This document shows positions 1,213 to 49,557 of a stretch of DNA of 64,000 bases, in pieces; the stretch's first letter is position 1; every line of letters begins with the position of its first letter. Made by a program: the position numbers and the translations under genes. This DNA comes from Pontibacillus halophilus JSM 076056 = DSM 19796 (GTDB taxonomy: Bacteria; Bacillota; Bacilli; Bacillales; BH030062). The notes under the pieces are model-generated. The model saw nothing but the letters and a program-made list of their open reading frames with translations, made no database searches and was not told the DNA's origin. The stretch covers positions 248,001 to 312,000 of the forward strand of contig NZ_AULI01000001.1 of the NCBI RefSeq assembly GCF_000425205.1. The letters are read 5' to 3'.

Positions 1213-2883
1213 TTACATACGTTCTGGTGCTGATACACCGATTAGTTTCAATCCATTCTCAAGCGTCTGACGGACGGACTCAACAAGTGCCATACGAGCC
1301 TGAGTGCGTTCTACATACTCAGCATCCAGCACTTTCTCAGCGTTGTAGAAACTGTGCAACTTAGAAGCAAGATCAAATACGTACTGGGTAACACGGTGAG
1401 GGGTGCGTTTCTCTGCACTATCGGCTACAACCTGTGGGAAGTCACCAAGGTGCTTGAGAAGCTCAATTTCTTTCTCAGAGGAAAGATAAGACCCATCAAT
1501 ATCTGTCGTAAATTCAAAGCCTTTCTCTTTCGCTCCTCTCAGCATGCTGCAAATACGAGCGTGTGCATACTGCACATAGTAGACAGGATTATCATTCGAC
1601 TCGGACGTCGCAAGGTCCATATCGAAATCAAGGTGTGAATCACTTGAACGCATGACGAAGAAATAACGCATAGCATCAACGCCCACTTCTTCCATAAGCT
1701 CACGAAGTGTCACAGCTTTCCCTGTTCGTTTACTCATCTTCACTTTTTCACCGTTCTGGTAGAGACTCACCATTTGGATAATCTCAGCTTCGAGTGTATC
1801 TACATTGTATCCAAGAGACTGAATCGCTGCTTTCATACGAGGAACGTAACCGTGGTGGTCGGCTCCAAGTACATCAATCAACGTGTCATGTCCACGCTCA
1901 AGTTTATTTAAGTGGTAAGCAATATCTGGTGTTAGATACGTGTAGCTACCATCTTGTTTAATTAATACACGGTCCTTATCGTCACCAAAGTCGGTTGAGC
2001 GAAGCCAAGTTGCTCCATCTGCTTCAAACACATACCCTTTCTCTCTTAACGTCTCAAGAGCATGTTCAATGCTACCTTCTTTATATAAAGAAGATTCTGA
2101 GAACCAACGATCGAAGTGCACGCGGTATTGACCCAAGTCTTCTTCAATCTTCTTCAACTCATACTTCAATCCATAATCACGGAAGAAGGCAAGACGTTCT
2201 TCAGAAGGCTTCTCTTTCCACTCAGAGCCATATTGTTCTGCAAGCTTCTTGCCAATTTCAATAAGGTCTTTACCGTGATAACCGTCCTCAGGCATTGGGA
2301 AATCTTCCCCAAGGGCCTGCATATAACGCGCTTCTACTGAATACATTAGGTTGTTAATCTGATTCCCAGCGTCATTAATGTAGTATTCACGAGCAACATT
2401 GTAGCCAGCCTTTTGCATAATATTGCTGATTGCATCTCCAACAGAGGCACCACGGGCGTGTCCAAGGTGCAAGTCACCAGTAGGGTTCGCAGATACGAAT
2501 TCGATCAGTACACTATGCCCCTTACCATTATCGCTTTCACCGTACGCATCTTTCGCCTGAAGGATTGTAGGTACAAGGTCTGTTAAATACTGATTGTTCA
2601 TCTTAAAGTTGATAAATCCAGGGCCTGCAATTTCAATTGACTCTATAGAAGCCTTTGTCGTATCGAAATGAGCAACTAGATCCTCTGCAATGGCACGAGG
2701 GGCTTTCTTCGCAATACGCGCCAGTTGCATAGCCATATTTGTAGCATAATCACCGTGCGTTTTATCTTTTGGCTGCTCAAGGACAACCTCTGGGATTTCG
2801 TCTTCTTTAGCAAGCTCAGCCTTCACTACAGCTTGAATAATTTCCTGCTTCAGCTTCTGTTCGGTTTGTTCAACAATGTTCAT
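1213..2883 (-). CDS. argS: Arginyl-tRNA synthetase
   Basis: Class I aminoacyl-tRNA synthetase of 556 residues that charges tRNA-Arg. Domain order is typical: an N-terminal Add1 tRNA-binding domain (about 1-110), the Rossmann catalytic core with the HIGH-type motif HLGH at residues 139-142 inside [12 protein letters not shown], the KMSKR signature at 382-386, and a C-terminal DALR anticodon-binding domain ending in the usual ...[10 protein letters not shown]. The gene overlaps the upstream ywiB-like gene by 4 bases (ATGA type), indicating translational coupling; the same argS-ywiB order occurs in Bacillus. I saw no T-box leader in front of the pair. Confidence 0.98.
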
Positions 2884-3317
2884 GAACGTTTGTCCTCCTT
2901 ATACTGTAAGAAGAGCTGGTGAGGCTGTTTCTCTTGACCGTTGACACTGAGGTCATACTTTATTTCAAGCGTGCCGTCCGTCTCCTCTTCGTTCGTGAAA
3001 TGGGTAAGGTCATTTGTATCTGCTTCAAGATGAAATTTACCGTACGGATGATGATAAATGTTCTCTGTACGCTTTCCTTCTCGGAAAGTTTGAGTCATTT
3101 GTATCGGACCCGTACGACGAATTATCGTCTTATGTTGTTGAATCGTTACAAGTGTATCGACAACGCCTTCTTCATTCGTCTCTTGAAAGCGAAGAATATG
3201 AGCATCGCCCTTCTTTACGTAATCGCCAGGTTCTTCGACGATTATACGTTCCTGGTTATCTTTCTCACCTATGAGCGTCTCTAGGCGTACTTGTACAGGT
3301 TTGCGTTCATCTGCCAT
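2880..3317 (-). CDS. ywiB: YwiB-like DUF1934 family protein
   Basis: Small soluble protein of 145 residues, rich in beta strands, matching the DUF1934 (calycin-like beta-barrel) family represented by YwiB of B. subtilis. Family features visible are the early VQVRLETLI strand, the internal [11 protein letters not shown] segment, and the late G..H.E.DT..LTHF / [12 protein letters not shown] strands. Its function is unknown. The assignment is strengthened by its position directly upstream of argS with a 4-base overlap, as in Bacillus. The start at 3317 has AGAGGTGA upstream. About 180 bases separate it from the terminator of the AimR-like gene, so it probably has its own promoter. Confidence 0.85.
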
Positions 3318-3460: not shown

Positions 3461-3482
3461 AACGTCCTTCAAATTGGACGTT
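3461..3482 (-). terminator. Intrinsic terminator of the AimR-like gene
   Basis: Stem AACGTCC/GGACGTT with an 8-base loop, followed on the minus strand by TTCTTTTTTT. It begins only about 15 bases after the stop codon, leaving no room for a downstream peptide gene on the same transcript. Confidence 0.8.
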
Positions 3483-3497
3483 ACAGTGGACCTCACT

Positions 3498-4586
3498 CTA
3501 TTGTAGTTTCTTTAGTTCCTGCACAGGGAGCTGCGCAAAATAATAATGACCCCATTCATTCTTGAAGCGATGGTAAGATTCCCACAATAGCTTTTGGTCT
3601 TTCAGAGCCTTACCAAGGTAATATTGTTGAAACGGAGTCGGGCTCTCGATTGGCAGGAGAATCTCTAGTGCTTCCTCAATGTTTCCTTTAGCGATATGAA
3701 GATGCGCTTGTTCAATTTCATCTGTCGTCTCAATCCCATCCGCTTGCCCATGGTAGGCTGCGATAAACGGAATATCGTTGTTGCATAGTACAGAAAGACG
3801 AGTGTGATAACGGTGCTGCTCTGCCATTTTCTTGGCTTCATGAATGTGATACATAGCTTGCTCGTAAGATTCTAGCAGATAAGACAAGGCTAAGTTCTCG
3901 TGGGTCTGCACTTTCTTGTAAGAGCTTTGGGAATGATTCAACGTCCAATAACCGTGCTTACGCGCCAGTACGAGCTCGTTCCGACGCCAATGATAATGAA
4001 ACATGAAGTCATTCATCTTCATCTCAATGAAGGAAAGAAGCATAGGGTCTTCAATGTCATCACGCTGTTTCGATAAACGGCTATAATAGTTACCCATTAC
4101 CCCGTATCTTCTCATGTCTCCGTAGGAAGCCCCTACAAAGTATGTGACGACAAACGTCAATTCTTTACTCATTAGACGAATGCCATTCAATCCGTCAAGA
4201 AAAGCGTGAGATCCCACTCTGCCGAGCATTCGGTCTAAAATGAGCTCATAGAGTCTTCCCCACTGCTGGTTCTCCTCATTGTCACTTTCCTTGTTCCGTC
4301 GAATAAGGACTGTTAATTCATTGAAATAGGCATTCATATATAAATATTCTAACCCTAATCGCATGTTCCAGTCGTTCTCCGTCAGCAAACAGTACTCTTT
4401 CAACAATCCCATCGTTTCTTCTGTATTATAAGTCATCGATAGTTTTAACTGAATGAGGTGAAGCGGTAGCTCTTCGTCCTTCCCTCTTGATGTAAATTCA
4501 TTTAACACAGAACCAGATGGATGGGTTCGATTATACAGTCCAGTGTAGTCATAGGTGGCTTTTTGTCTCTTTGATTTTTCCCTCAT
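3498..4586 (-). CDS. AimR-like (arbitrium receptor family) TPR regulator, no adjacent aimP
   Basis: Helical-repeat protein of 362 residues. From memory it aligns along most of its length with the phage phi3T arbitrium receptor AimR: LNEF near residue 30 (AimR FNEF), LKEYCL (MKDYCL), LEYLYMNAYFNELTVLI (LEYADANMFFEIEDVLI), WGRLYEL (YGKIYKI), and a C-terminus QYYLGKAL...SYHRFK...QLPVQELKKL that matches the AimR C-terminal TPRs. AimR binds a secreted hexapeptide and controls phage lysis-lysogeny. Here the N-terminus is shorter than AimR, so the DNA-binding helix-turn-helix may be incomplete. The chosen start has AGGATGG 6 bases upstream; the frame is open to 4646. No phage genes surround it, and a terminator follows at once. 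It may be a domesticated regulator; other Rap-like TPR regulators are the alternative. Confidence 0.7.
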   Translation of the reverse strand: MREKSKRQKATYDYTGLYNRTHPSGSVLNEFTSRGKDEELPLHLIQLKLSMTYNTEETMGLLKEYCLLTENDWNMRLGLEYLYMNAYFNELTVLIRRNKESDNEENQQWGRLYELILDRMLGRVGSHAFLDGLNGIRLMSKELTFVVTYFVGASYGDMRRYGVMGNYYSRLSKQRDDIEDPMLLSFIEMKMNDFMFHYHWRRNELVLARKHGYWTLNHSQSSYKKVQTHENLALSYLLESYEQAMYHIHEAKKMAEQHRYHTRLSVLCNNDIPFIAAYHGQADGIETTDEIEQAHLHIAKGNIEEALEILLPIESPTPFQQYYLGKALKDQKLLWESYHRFKNEWGHYYFAQLPVQELKKLQ

Positions 4587-4689
4587 CTCAATCCATCCTA
4601 AATTGTGTATTTTAAAGTCGTATAAACAACATGCCACACCATACATTATTTTACAAGGATTATCTATAACTTTCGAACAGATACAAAAA

Positions 4690-4716
4690 GAGCCCCCTTA
4701 TGTACTAAGGAAGCTC
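4690..4716 (-). terminator. Intrinsic terminator downstream of speB
   Basis: Imperfect stem GAGC-TT-CCTTA / TAAGG-GG-GCTC followed by TTTTTG on the minus strand, 12 bases after the speB stop. Confidence 0.75.
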
Positions 4717-4728
4717 TTCACTCATTTA

Positions 4729-5604
4729 TTAAGATTTTATCCACCCAAGTAGAATTTCACGAATAAATTTACTAGCAGCAATTTGAGTTTGTTCCGTTGG
4801 GTCGTAAGCTGGAGCAACCTCGACTAGATCCGCTCCCACGACATTCACTTCTGAAGCAGCAATGGCATGGATTGCTTCAAGCAGTTCTTTAGAAGAAATA
4901 CCTCCAGCCTCAGCCGTACCAGTACCCGGTGCAAAAGCTGGGTCTAATACGTCGATGTCAATTGTGACATAGACGTTACGCCCAGCTAGCGTTGGAAGAA
5001 TTTCTTTCAAAGGCTCGACGACTTCAAATTTGGACATATGCATGCCGCTTTCCTCTGCGTACTGAAACTCTTCTCTCATTCCTGACCGTATACCAAAGGA
5101 GTAGACGTTCTTAGGTCCAATTCGTTCGCAAATCTTACGGATTGGTGTGGAGTGAGATAGCGCTTCCCCTTCATATTCCACTCGCAAATCAGCATGTGCA
5201 TCAATATGAATTACCGCTAAATCATCATACTTCTCATGAACAGCTTGAATGACTGGCCAAGTCACAAGGTGTTCTCCCCCCATACCTAGAGGGAATTTCC
5301 CTTGCTCAAGTATCTTCTCGACGTAATCACGTATGAGATTCAAGCTTCTTTCTGGGTTTCCAAAAGGCAAAGGGATATCTCCGGCATCAAAGTAATTGAC
5401 CTCTTCTAAATGACGGTCGAGATAGGGACTATATTCTTCAAGTCCAAGTGAAGCTTCTCTGATACGGTTTGGACCGAATCGAGACCCTGGGCGAAAGCTT
5501 ACGGTCCAATCCATTGGCATGCCGTATAGGATAACGTCCGCCTCCTCATGAGAAGGGCGACTCATAATAAATACTTTTCCTGAGTAACTTTCATCGAATC
5601 GCAT
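4729..5604 (-). CDS. speB: Agmatinase
   Basis: Ureohydrolase of 291 residues that hydrolyses agmatine to putrescine and urea in polyamine synthesis. The binuclear manganese site is visible: GGEH, then IHIDAHADLR (three ligands) and TIDIDVLDPAFAPGTGT (two ligands), the last being the agmatinase/arginase signature. Length and N-terminus fit the B. subtilis enzyme. It lies 12 bases downstream of speE in the same direction, reproducing the conserved speE-speB operon; putrescine made here is the substrate of SpeE. No arginine decarboxylase gene is in the window. Confidence 0.95.
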   Translation of the reverse strand: MRFDESYSGKVFIMSRPSHEEADVILYGMPMDWTVSFRPGSRFGPNRIREASLGLEEYSPYLDRHLEEVNYFDAGDIPLPFGNPERSLNLIRDYVEKILEQGKFPLGMGGEHLVTWPVIQAVHEKYDDLAVIHIDAHADLRVEYEGEALSHSTPIRKICERIGPKNVYSFGIRSGMREEFQYAEESGMHMSKFEVVEPLKEILPTLAGRNVYVTIDIDVLDPAFAPGTGTAEAGGISSKELLEAIHAIAASEVNVVGADLVEVAPAYDPTEQTQIAASKFIREILLGWIKS

Positions 5605-5616
5605 GGCAGCGCCCCC

Positions 5617-6444
5617 TTACTCCGTTAGATCCTTCACAAATTTCGGCAATGCAAAGGAAGCCTTGTGGAGTTCTTTCGTGTAGTACTTTGTGTCAATCTC
5701 ATGGAAACGCTGGTCACTCACTTCAAGCGGGTCATGCTTCTTACTTCCAATCGTAAATGTCCATAACCCACTCGGATAGGTTGGGATATTTGCTGTATAC
5801 AAGCGGGTAATTGGGAAGATTTCTTTCACATCACCCATCACTTGCTTAATTAAATCAGCTTTAAACCAAGGATTATCGGTTTGAGCTACGAAGATGCCAT
5901 CCTCTTTCAATGCTTTAGCTATTCCTGCATAAAAGCCTTTCGTAAACAGATTTACAGCTGGTCCTACGGGCTCAGTGGAATCGACCATAATAACGTCATA
6001 TTCTTGTTCGCTTTCGGCAATATGCATAAACCCATCACCAATTTCTACAGAGACGCGCTCATCCTCTAAATCTCCTGCGATTGTCGGTAGATATTTCTTA
6101 GAGTATTCCACTACTTTCCCATCAATTTCAGCCAATACGGCTTTTTCAACGCTCGGGTGTTTCAGAACTTCTCGAATGACTCCTCCGTCTCCACCTCCGA
6201 CAACAAGTACATGTTTAGGATTCGGATGAGTAAACAATGGGATATGTGCCACCATTTCATGATAGACGAATTCGTCACGTTCCGTTGTCATTACCATTCC
6301 ATCTAGCGTCAACATGTTGCCCCATTCTTCTGTCTCAATCATGTCCAATTTCTGAAATTCCGTTTGTTCCGTATGATGAGTACGTTTTACTTTCGCTGTA
6401 ATCCCGAATGAATCCGTTTGTTTTTCTGTATACCAAAGCTCCAT
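5617..6444 (-). CDS. speE: Spermidine synthase
   Basis: Aminopropyltransferase of 275 residues that transfers an aminopropyl group from decarboxylated S-adenosylmethionine to putrescine. The N-terminal beta domain ([28 protein letters not shown]) is followed by the Rossmann methyltransferase-like fold with the nucleotide-binding loop [10 protein letters not shown] and acidic AEID, then VDSTEPVGP and QTDNPW. First gene of the speE-speB pair, divergent from pbpG across a 198-bp spacer; the same three genes neighbour each other in B. subtilis. Confidence 0.96.
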
Positions 6445-6642: not shown

Positions 6643-8679
6643 GTGAAGAAACGAGTACGTAAACGGTTGATGATAGGCAGTATCGGCATTGCAGGCAGCG
6701 TGCTCCTTTCCACGCTCCTTGTGCTCCTCTACTGCTACGTTAAAGGAGCTCCTCCACTTGCCATCGATCAGAACACGCATGTATATAGCGTGGCAGAAGA
6801 GGTCATTGGGGTTGAACGCGGAAGTGAAAATCGCTATTGGGTGGAATTAGAGGAAATCTCGCCACACGTTATAGAAAGCACATTAACGACTGAGGACAAA
6901 CGCTTCTATGACCACCTAGGCTTTGACATGAAGCGTATGGCTTCTGCAGCCATGAAAGACTTGAAACACATGGCGATGGTAGAAGGCGCGAGCACCATCA
7001 CCCAACAATACGCCCGAAATCTCTATCTTTCTCACGAGAAAACGTGGACACGAAAATGGAATGAAGCCCTTTATGCCTTACGCCTCGAGATGTTCTACGA
7101 CAAAGATACGATACTCGAAGGCTATTTAAATACCATCTATTACGGACATGGAATGTATGGAATCGAAGCAGCCAGTCGGTATTATTTCGACAAGCATGCA
7201 AGTGAACTTTCATTGGCAGAGGCAGCCACTTTAGCCGCAGTTCCTAAAGGTCCAACTTACTATTCACCTTACACACAATACGAAAATGCGAAACAACGCC
7301 AAGAACTCATCCTGTCGAACATGAAGAAACAAGGGGTGATCTCAGAGCAAGCGTATACGCTTGCAATCGCTGAGCCACTTGAATTAACAGAACATAACGA
7401 AGAACGAGCGAAACGGATGGCGCCATACTTCCAAGATACAGTACTCGTTGAAGCCGCTCGTCATTTAGATACCGACTTAGAATCGATTCGTTCTGGAGGC
7501 TACCATATCTATACCACTCTAGATGTCTCGAAACAAGAAGAACTGGAGCAAGCTGTGAACGAACATATGCCCCCAAGTTCCCTAGAAGTAGGCGCGATGA
7601 GTATGCACCCCGATACAGGAGCAGTCGTAGCCATGGTAGGTGGAACAGATTATGAACGAAGTCAGTACAACCGAGCGGTCTCATCGAAACGTATGGCCGG
7701 TTCGACGTTTAAACCGTTTCTTTACTACGCAGCACTTGAACATGGATACACTCCATCCACCACGTTAATGAGTGAACAAACGACGTTTGAATTGAAAGAT
7801 GGGACAGCCTATGCACCTTCCAACTTTCACGGATATTACGCAGATGCTCCCATAACCTTAGCCCAAGCCATTGCGCTATCCGATAATATTTACGCGGTTA
7901 AGACGAACTTATTTATGGGAACAGAGGAACTGGTTGATGTTGCACGACAATTTGGTATTAAGAGTAAACTGCCTTCCGTCCCATCGTTAGCGCTTGGTAC
8001 GGCTTCTGTGTCGGTGTCAGAAATGACCGAAGGCTACAGTTTAATTGCCAATAATGGAAAGGAATCCCCCGCTCACACAATTGTTAGAATTACAGACCGA
8101 CACAACCACGTCGTCTATGAACGCACAGAAGACGAACCTAAACAAAAGCTTGATGAAAGTAAAGCGTTCGTGCTTGCTCATCTAATGACCGGGATGTTTG
8201 ACGAGTCCTTAAATGACTATATGCGTGTAACAGGGGCTTCTGTCTCCCCTAAGTTAACTCGCCCCTACGCTGGTAAATCTGGCACGACGGAAACAGATAG
8301 TTGGATGATTGGCTTTACACCTTCACTTGTTACAGGAATATGGACAGGCTATGACGACAACAAGGAATTAACGCTTGGTGACCAAACCGTCTCCAAGCAA
8401 ATCTGGACCTCCTACATGGAAGATGCTCATAAGAAGGAAACCATTGAGACCTTTAACCCTACTGGGGATGTGGTTGGTGTGTATGTCGATCCGGATACAG
8501 GCAAGCTTGCCACTCCGTATTGTGTATCACCTAGACTCACTTACTTCGAATCAGGAACGGAGCCAACCGAATATTGCCACGACCATATGCCAAGTGAGGA
8601 AGAACTTCCAGAACAATCTCCATCCCAACCTACCCCTGAGAAGAAAGGGGTAAGAAAATGGTTTGATTGGTTGTTTTAG
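6643..8679 (+). CDS. pbpG: Class A penicillin-binding protein (PbpG/PBP2d-like)
   Basis: Bifunctional peptidoglycan synthase of 678 residues. An N-terminal basic stretch and one membrane anchor (about residues 10-32) precede the glycosyltransferase domain, with TEDKRFYDHLGFD carrying the catalytic Glu near residue 84 and GASTITQQYARN. The transpeptidase domain has SxxK as GSTFK near residue 353, SDN, and KSGTTETDS near 545. A short cytoplasm-distal tail is rich in Pro, Glu and Gln. I chose GTG at 6643 because GGGGTGA lies just upstream; GTG at 6634 has no ribosome binding site. Position beside speE and ywhD matches B. subtilis pbpG, which acts in spore peptidoglycan synthesis. Confidence 0.92.
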   Translation: MKKRVRKRLMIGSIGIAGSVLLSTLLVLLYCYVKGAPPLAIDQNTHVYSVAEEVIGVERGSENRYWVELEEISPHVIESTLTTEDKRFYDHLGFDMKRMASAAMKDLKHMAMVEGASTITQQYARNLYLSHEKTWTRKWNEALYALRLEMFYDKDTILEGYLNTIYYGHGMYGIEAASRYYFDKHASELSLAEAATLAAVPKGPTYYSPYTQYENAKQRQELILSNMKKQGVISEQAYTLAIAEPLELTEHNEERAKRMAPYFQDTVLVEAARHLDTDLESIRSGGYHIYTTLDVSKQEELEQAVNEHMPPSSLEVGAMSMHPDTGAVVAMVGGTDYERSQYNRAVSSKRMAGSTFKPFLYYAALEHGYTPSTTLMSEQTTFELKDGTAYAPSNFHGYYADAPITLAQAIALSDNIYAVKTNLFMGTEELVDVARQFGIKSKLPSVPSLALGTASVSVSEMTEGYSLIANNGKESPAHTIVRITDRHNHVVYERTEDEPKQKLDESKAFVLAHLMTGMFDESLNDYMRVTGASVSPKLTRPYAGKSGTTETDSWMIGFTPSLVTGIWTGYDDNKELTLGDQTVSKQIWTSYMEDAHKKETIETFNPTGDVVGVYVDPDTGKLATPYCVSPRLTYFESGTEPTEYCHDHMPSEEELPEQSPSQPTPEKKGVRKWFDWLF

Positions 8680-49325: not shown

Positions 49326-49399
49326 TGTGACATACGTAACTGTTCGAATGTCTCTAAAATTGGATACACGTCCAGAATTTGATCTTTAGACGTTGCGCC

Positions 49400-49557
49400 A
49401 TTTCCTTCTCCCATCCGGACTTTCACCGTCGGCTTTGGATTGGTACCAAATCAGCCATAGCTAGTAGGTAGCTACGGGTCGCGGGCTCGTAAGCGTGTAA
49501 GCTTCATCACCGCCGGTTGGGATTTTCACCCGACCCCGAAGGAAAACTTATTCAAAT
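49400..49557 (-). ncRNA. FMN riboswitch (RFN element)
   Basis: Minus-strand leader of the rib operon. The conserved RFN blocks are present in order: CTTCGGGGTCGGGTGAAAAT, CCCAACCGGCGGTGATG, AGCCCGCGACCCG, the CTGATTTGGT segment, AATCCAAAGCCGACGGTGAA and AGTCCGGATGGGAGAAGGAA, with closing P1 helix TTTCCTTC/GAAGGAAA. When FMN binds, the downstream terminator forms. The 417 bases between ribD and osmC hold this leader; about 110 bases toward osmC show nothing further except weak inverted repeats. Confidence 0.96.

Follow-up and report, generated by a model that had tools for sequence, protein, structure and literature searches.

The gene at 3498–4586 of the window (by which is meant the whole 64,000-nucleotide stretch of Pontibacillus halophilus DNA analysed here) raises the question of what a relative of AimR, known as a viral DNA-binding switch, is doing among the housekeeping genes of a bacterium. 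An earlier note on this DNA had read its product as an AimR-like homologue with neither peptide gene nor phage context, being either a chromosomal, domesticated receptor that may sense peptides made elsewhere or a TPR regulator that had lost its DNA-binding role. What becomes evident from the analysis is that the gene is a variant of the AimR kind, neither an AimR in the strict sense nor a stray phage gene. The features of the locus are as follows.

1213–2883, minus strand: argS, a common flank of site A (annotation match and synteny).
2880–3317, minus strand: a DUF1934 gene, a common flank of site A (annotation match and synteny), which we take to be the ywiB of the earlier note.
3461–3482, minus strand: a terminator-like stem just 3′ of the receptor gene, 15 bases past its stop.
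3498–4586, minus strand: the receptor gene, of the Pfam AimR family and without the helix-turn-helix (HTH), 362 amino acids, an orphan (without a propeptide gene) at site A (open reading frame, profiles, fold and propeptide test).
3711–3713, minus strand: the codon of E292, by alignment the equivalent of SPbeta E300, which holds the peptide N-terminus.
4467–4586, minus strand: codons 1–40, the location of the HTH in phage AimR; residues 1–25 have a pLDDT below 50 and there is no HTH-profile match (profile and AF2).
4687–4719, minus strand: a terminator-like stem after speB, between speB and the receptor gene.
4729–5604, minus strand: speB (agmatinase), a common flank of site A (annotation match and synteny).
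5617–6444, minus strand: speE (spermidine synthase), a common flank of site A (annotation match and synteny).

The similarity of the gene product to AimR is far above chance. An intact open reading frame of 362 codons (1089 bases) runs on the minus strand from an ATG at 4586 to a stop at 3498; of this ATG and a second in-frame one upstream at 4646, the former has the better ribosome site, a ribosome-site-like AGGATGG six bases before it. The protein matches PF22871, the Pfam AimR family for the TPR region, at 317.7 bits (E 9.6e-95, cut-off 26.7), NF038310 at 181.3 bits (cut-off 70), phrog_1728 with E 1.1e-52 and the sequence of the PDB AimR entry 5zvv with E 1.6e-8. PF22871 is its sole Pfam match at E values up to 10, the Rap N-terminal domain giving none. 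An AF2 model, made from a seven-row alignment that includes two phage sequences (mean pLDDT 79.9), predicts a TPR solenoid of the AimR type. Foldseek finds 16 matches to this model at E ≤ 0.001, 15 of them titled AimR or arbitrium receptor and one titled ‘apo form transcription factor’ (6ipx). Ranked by Z, the leading 13 entries (26.5–28.4) are twelve titled AimR or arbitrium receptor together with 6ipx, and below AimR rank several Rap entries (best Z 18.2), then MalT (15.6), PlcR (15.0) and NprR (14.4). Profile and structure comparison with AimR, set beforehand as a test, places the protein in the AimR family, and an unrelated TPR family is ruled out by the profile scores and the fold comparison (Z 26–28 for AimR against 18 for the best Rap). 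In this regard the earlier proposal of an AimR-like homologue is confirmed by PF22871, NF038310, phrog_1728, the PDB sequence match and the predicted fold. Most of the landmark segments on which it was founded do align with phage AimR, but LNEF and the phage FNEF occupy different places in the alignment.

The surroundings, too, are largely as had been described. The housekeeping flanks are identified as argS, the DUF1934 gene, speB and speE, and the terminator expected within about 15 bases of the stop is present as the stem at 3482–3461, 15 bases past it. With these genes on either side, and a PBP1A-type gene also among the flanks, the location is not that of a phage or prophage. The two terminator-like stems at 3461–3482 and 4687–4719 suggest, as far as the letters can tell, that the receptor gene is a transcription unit of its own. 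Elsewhere in the window, an FMN riboswitch lies on the minus strand at 49399–49547 (Rfam RF00050, 110.9 bits).

Where the protein departs from phage AimR is at its N-terminus. In SPbeta AimR the HTH comprises residues 1–59, with N30, N32 and Y35 as recognition residues (PMC6458997, cited, as are the other papers below, from the accessible part of its text). The stretch before the first TPR motif was measured in 116 aligned receptors; in those of sites A, B and C (described below) and of families f2 and f7 it is mostly 34–58 residues long, a few stretches being longer where the start chosen lay further upstream in the frame, and the starts of these receptors often have a good ribosome site. HTH-bearing seed receptors have at least 61 residues there, and the window protein, counted from ATG 4586, has 61. 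A profile of the HTH region, with seeds hand-picked by length and locus and with leave-one-out scoring, gives 5.3–32.8 bits in 22 of 22 seed rows, each left out in turn, and 31–40 bits in five of five phage AimRs, against 2.6 bits or less in every row from A, B, C, f2 and f7 among the 100. The window protein does not match this profile even when the upstream frame is added, and in the AF2 model the solenoid begins near residue 42, after the low-scoring residues 1–25. Counting against HTH loss, NF038310 aligns with the window protein from profile position 9, nominally inside the HTH region (the corresponding positions are 44 in the site C paralogue and 32 in that of site B); phrog_1728 aligns from its position 17. 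The window receptor is without a detectable HTH, and it has probably lost DNA binding. The earlier note had called the HTH shortened, and a change at the N-terminus there is, but the HTH is not detectable at all by profile and is unfolded in the model; the lost DNA-binding role that it offered as an inference becomes probable from this profile result and the disordered N-terminus of the model. Among other receptors, four AimR-like proteins (at L095, L103, L104 and L105) have 17–24 residues before TPR1; L095, L103 and L105 lie inside the phage-side tree group, L104 being absent from the tree, and a second, independent loss of the HTH is possible in these four.

Genome searches show that the window's genome has three AimR genes, one at each of sites A, B and C. 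Eight other genomes of its family were sampled, of which seven have three to six AimR genes and one (G005) has none, and the three sites are common to all eight AimR-bearing genomes of the family, that is, the window's genome and the seven relatives. Site A has the order argS, ywiB, one to four receptors, speB and speE, only the speB–speE side being kept in G006. Site B, with gene names by NCBIfam, has the order mbl, spoIIID, receptor, spoIIQ, spoIID and murA, the first of these being a MreB-type gene and presumably mbl. At site C the neighbours are a gene for an MscS-type channel on one side and one for a Na+/H+ antiporter (PF03553) on the other, and they give no functional hint. Another family, f14, has site B in 13 genomes; the receptor adjoins spoIIQ in all 13 (with a short unlabelled ORF between in one), and in 9 the far side of the receptor carries a labelled spoIIID; one of the other four is cut by a contig end. 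Site A occurs in four f14 genomes, one of which has argS–ywiB but no spe genes. The flanks are kept also where the receptor is missing, with argS–ywiB–speB–speE in G005, G332 and G009 and spoIIID–spoIIQ in G005; in G014, again without a receptor, argS and speB have unlabelled ORFs between them. Two genomes stand outside the coverage of site A, G021 having no speB match and G372 only distant matches. The 92 neighbourhoods were chosen from listed AimR matches, not at random; in the site maps, which were labelled mostly by homology among themselves and not exhaustively, no phage gene is recognised, and among the matches listed no site A receptor has an inner stop. The best reading of the site A gene is that it is not a stray, but a vertically inherited, host-owned receptor at a stable chromosome site.

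Receptor arrays and small ORFs were seen at several of these loci. Four relatives have arrays of three to four receptors at site A; at L034 (G006) and L037 (G008) four receptors stand there head-to-tail, 50–144 bases apart, none with a propeptide. In a different family, HTH-type AimR genes form an array of seven (L123, in G013) and one of five plus a fragment (L125, in G123), with a propeptide-like ORF, by a loose test, after the last AimR gene only. Between receptor and spoIIID at site B, L047:7139-7435 and L053:4330-4581 are mutually related same-strand ORFs of 98 and 83 amino acids, neither of which is signal-like by the propeptide test.

To keep the HTH from influencing the grouping, the trees were built from the TPR region only, and 21 of the 116 receptors (near-duplicates, array copies and truncated ones) were dropped before the 100-row tree. 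The receptors of A, B, C, f2 and f7 form one clade of 63 of the 100 rows (SH-aLRT 100), which recurs in a careful tree as 55 of 62 chosen rows (support 100/99). Within it the window gene groups with the site A genes of its own family (98/91), and the five phage AimRs fall outside, in a group of 20 rows (support 95). The HTH state changes at least six times across the 100-row tree, at an 8-bit threshold that counted one seed (5.3 bits) as lacking the HTH. Being unrooted, the trees alone tell neither gain of the HTH from its loss nor which way any host–phage exchange ran. Sites A and B as two ancestral clades were considered and set aside, free trees grouping mostly by family; the tree test does not reject a single clade of A receptors (p 0.26) or of B receptors (p 0.29). 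In phage and viral collections no HTH-less member was found at the sensitivity used, short peptide patterns on viral_contigs being able to miss distant members. A tblastn search with the site C receptor returns four phage and six plasmid records at 21–27% identity; the phage records (21–25%) are two of SPbeta type with HTH-bearing AimRs and two whose annotation is that of an XRE-type HTH protein or regulator. Of the domesticated chromosomal receptor of the earlier note, what survives is its chromosomal nature; recent capture from a phage is not supported, given the HTH-less clade (100/99), host sites common to two families and no HTH-less phage member found at the sensitivity used. The prophage and peptide gene at site A of relatives, which the same note had named as evidence against itself, did not appear (no downstream propeptide at any of 22 receptors, no phage gene recognised in maps labelled mostly by homology among themselves).

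Propeptide genes were sought downstream of receptors as ORFs of 30–110 codons with a basic and hydrophobic N-terminus and [DN]P later on. By this test none of the 22 site A receptors, the window gene included, has one, while they are present for 5 of 21 receptors at B, all 8 at C, 1 of 3 in f2, 9 of 16 in f7 and 17 of the 46 remaining receptors; among the other genes of these regions, taken as a control, 3 of 763 have one. Nor does any ORF upstream of the window gene or antisense to it pass, and the adjacent aimP of arbitrium is absent here, just as had been claimed. Two upstream or antisense ORFs pass among the 22 site A receptors, neither at the window gene and neither signal-like by eye.

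Site C of the window's genome, by comparison, is a complete receptor–propeptide pair, the propeptide ending ...QDPTVGGVG. The C propeptide ORFs overlap or abut the receptor stop, and their tails are DPTVGGVG (twice), DPDINPGIG, DPNITVVG, NPYISVVG, DPDIKGMG, DPHVVGIG and DPYIDGMG. Searched as DNA over eight genomes, the pattern DPxxxG[VIM]G-stop recovers five of the eight C propeptides and also falls on two second ORFs at site B and in two places elsewhere; in the window's genome it has a single site, at C, and the reversed control has no match there. A second pattern, run over 18 genomes and insensitive (two of eight C propeptides), gives the same single site C, and at such pattern sensitivity the genome could hold further signals of different form. 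The peptide made elsewhere that the earlier note envisaged has a possible source in this pair, the one place in the window's genome to which the whole-genome search for AimP-like peptides leads. The same genome has five binding proteins of the SBP_bac_5 family over the cut-off. The site C signal is not general, since four f14 genomes have receptors at A and B that both lack a propeptide, and a search of these genomes with the second, insensitive pattern (two of eight) finds nothing.

Propeptides of other forms were also observed. At site B of G008 (L038:7152-7397) and G006 (L035, ~6800-7045) an 81-residue propeptide has four DPVEPPIK- or DPVEPPLP-like units, and a further small ORF after it ends in DPDIGGMG or DPDTGGMG, making two different candidate signals. 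In f7, the HTH-less receptors of L058, L059, L129, L134, L137, L139 and L142 have propeptides holding DPGDPGMG, DPGDSGVG and the like; several of these loci have neighbours in common, and they may be a host quorum-sensing family of their own.

The residues that contact the peptide in SPbeta AimR (PMC6458997) were mapped onto the receptor alignment. The equivalents of E300 and F276, which are E292 and F274 in the window protein, are identical in all 48 printed rows, which cover site A in both families, site B in the window's own family, site C and f7. The window protein also keeps W200, R201 and D193 (similarly W, K and E in the paralogue of site C) and has Y223 in place of R228 and H347 in place of D360; with some groove residues kept and others changed, peptide binding itself is a prediction. 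Among the site A receptors of the same family, the equivalents of W205 and K/R206 are both lost in 7 of 14 (four of G008 and one each of G001, G003 and G007), which disfavours one common ligand at A. The pocket columns there are more variable than the rest (entropy 1.70 against 1.41, with a value no higher than theirs in 4792 of 5000 random draws); those of site C are not specially conserved (1.11 against 1.18; 1619 of 5000 draws), and in f7 they are far better conserved than the other columns (8 of 5000 draws as low). The pattern favours a functional groove in the clade, with ligand choice at A diversified or relaxed. The site A receptors may have no single common ligand, or the site may be in the course of being lost.

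PF22871 has a match in 85 of 397 genomes. It has none in the 18 genomes without spoIIID, for which the hand-computed chance is ~0.01, a figure that ignores kinship, several of the 18 being small or incomplete and some related to each other. Within families, an AimR match occurs in 14 of 14 spoIIID-bearing genomes and neither of two without spoIIID in f7, in 13 of 15 and not in the single one without it in f14, and in 8 of 9 in f1. From these 18 genomes, together with the position of site B between spoIIID and spoIIQ, we infer a weak tie of AimR-like receptors to sporulation; the f1 exception, G005, which has spoIIID, spoIIQ and spoIID, speaks against a strict link. The Rap N-domain has one match in the window's genome, under the cut-off.

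The reading for which we see an even chance is that of a host-owned, vertically inherited, HTH-less receptor of the AimR family with a protein-contact output, probably set by a peptide from a paralogous locus. It starts from an AimR-family orphan without a detectable HTH at a common host site and from a signal gene in the same genome, and it would work as follows. The site C propeptide would be secreted and trimmed to a short C-terminal peptide, which would be re-imported through a peptide permease and, on binding, close the AimR-type TPR solenoid of the receptors, the orphan in the window among them, as AimP does in phage AimR. Without an HTH, the orphan would relay the signal by binding or releasing a protein partner, following a Rap-like logic, and not at an operator. 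With a protein partner as output instead of an operator, one peptide could set several receptors, much as PhrC, the peptide of RapC, sets both RapC and the orphan RapB (PMC9765709).

The orphan might alternatively sense the arbitrium peptides of infecting or resident phages and warn the host, a role proposed in print for chromosomal orphan AimRs (PMC9765709); the variable pocket of site A would fit the tracking of changing foreign peptides, and the arrays of three to four receptors in four relatives point the same way. Such eavesdropping is unlikely, however, for a receptor whose own genome has a signal gene at site C, whose clade counts complete host pairs among its members (all 8 receptors at C and 9 of 16 in f7) and has no HTH-less phage relative at the sensitivity used, and which lacks an HTH to turn on a gene directly. 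The same variable pocket, more so than the average column, would with the missing HTH and propeptide also suit a sink or spare copy, that is, an orphan that titrates the peptide or dimerises with the site C receptor and has no partner of its own. This we regard as distinctly unlikely, since the listed site A matches are free of inner stops, terminator-like stems suggest a separate transcription unit, and 8 of 9 genomes of its family, with four of another, have retained the gene at one site.

Continued DNA binding is improbable. Degenerate residues 1–40 could still touch DNA, or the TPR domain could contact its backbone as in SPbeta AimR, whose TPR residues contact the operator spacer (PMC6458997), and the alignments of NF038310 and phrog_1728 from positions 9 and 17 lend this some colour. 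The HTH profile nevertheless has no match, upstream frame included, the N-terminus is predicted to be disordered despite two phage HTHs in the alignment, and the other A and B receptors have just 34–58 residues before TPR1. Very improbable indeed is a recently domesticated phage gene, the remnant of a prophage that has lost its integrase, aimP and aimX. The AimRs of the structural papers do come from phages (PMC6458997), but the site is common to two families, its flanks are kept in relatives without the gene, no phage gene is recognised in the maps (not exhaustively annotated) and the clade is separate from the phage AimRs.

Beyond the host-owned receptor with a protein-contact output lies a wider proposition, possible but somewhat doubtful: that a whole bacterial, vertically inherited class of the AimR family lost its HTH at the base, uses chromosomal DP...G peptides of its own, represents a second route to the Rap design and feeds a host decision such as sporulation, being a host property before or independently of phage arbitrium. 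If true, ordinary quorum sensing in bacteria would also make use of the arbitrium receptor fold, with protein contacts as the means of signalling, and a host HTH-less clade with its own peptides departs from the viral role for which AimR is known. The puzzle of orphan chromosomal AimRs, already published (mBio 2022), becomes a testable model with a candidate ligand gene at site C of the same genome, and genes of this kind can be misrepresented by automatic names such as ‘lysis-lysogeny pheromone receptor’.

With the phage AimRs of SPbeta, phi3T and Katmira, the window protein has in common PF22871 and NF038310 scores over the cut-off, a solenoid of AimR type (Z 26–28) and the E300 anchor; it differs in having no detectable HTH and no adjacent aimP, in its host site and in an identity of 16–21% over the fold alignment. 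The orphan chromosomal AimRs described as eavesdroppers (PMC9765709) are likewise AimR homologues outside prophages without a propeptide gene, but that survey describes AimR as carrying an HTH, and its accessible part does not mention an HTH-less clade, the argS/speB or spoIIID/spoIIQ sites or a paired paralogue in the same genome. The accessible literature, to which most subscription papers and all supplements do not belong, yielded no account of an HTH-less AimR clade or of AimRs at these sites; receptor clusters are listed in PMC10075063. AimR has been placed with Paenibacillaceae receptors in PMC12700828, where DPG peptides are noted and chromosomal systems of Alkalihalobacilli branch within AimR; this ‘subfamily 21’ and the DPG-peptide systems resemble the present case, by description only, in being chromosomal, in branching with AimR in a sequence tree and in the DPG motif. 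Rap phosphatases, and the orphan RapB in particular, are similar in being HTH-less TPR peptide receptors of which an orphan can use the peptide of a paralogue, and they differ in that the window protein has no match to the Rap N-terminal domain and in fold lies much closer to AimR (Z 27) than to Rap (Z 18).
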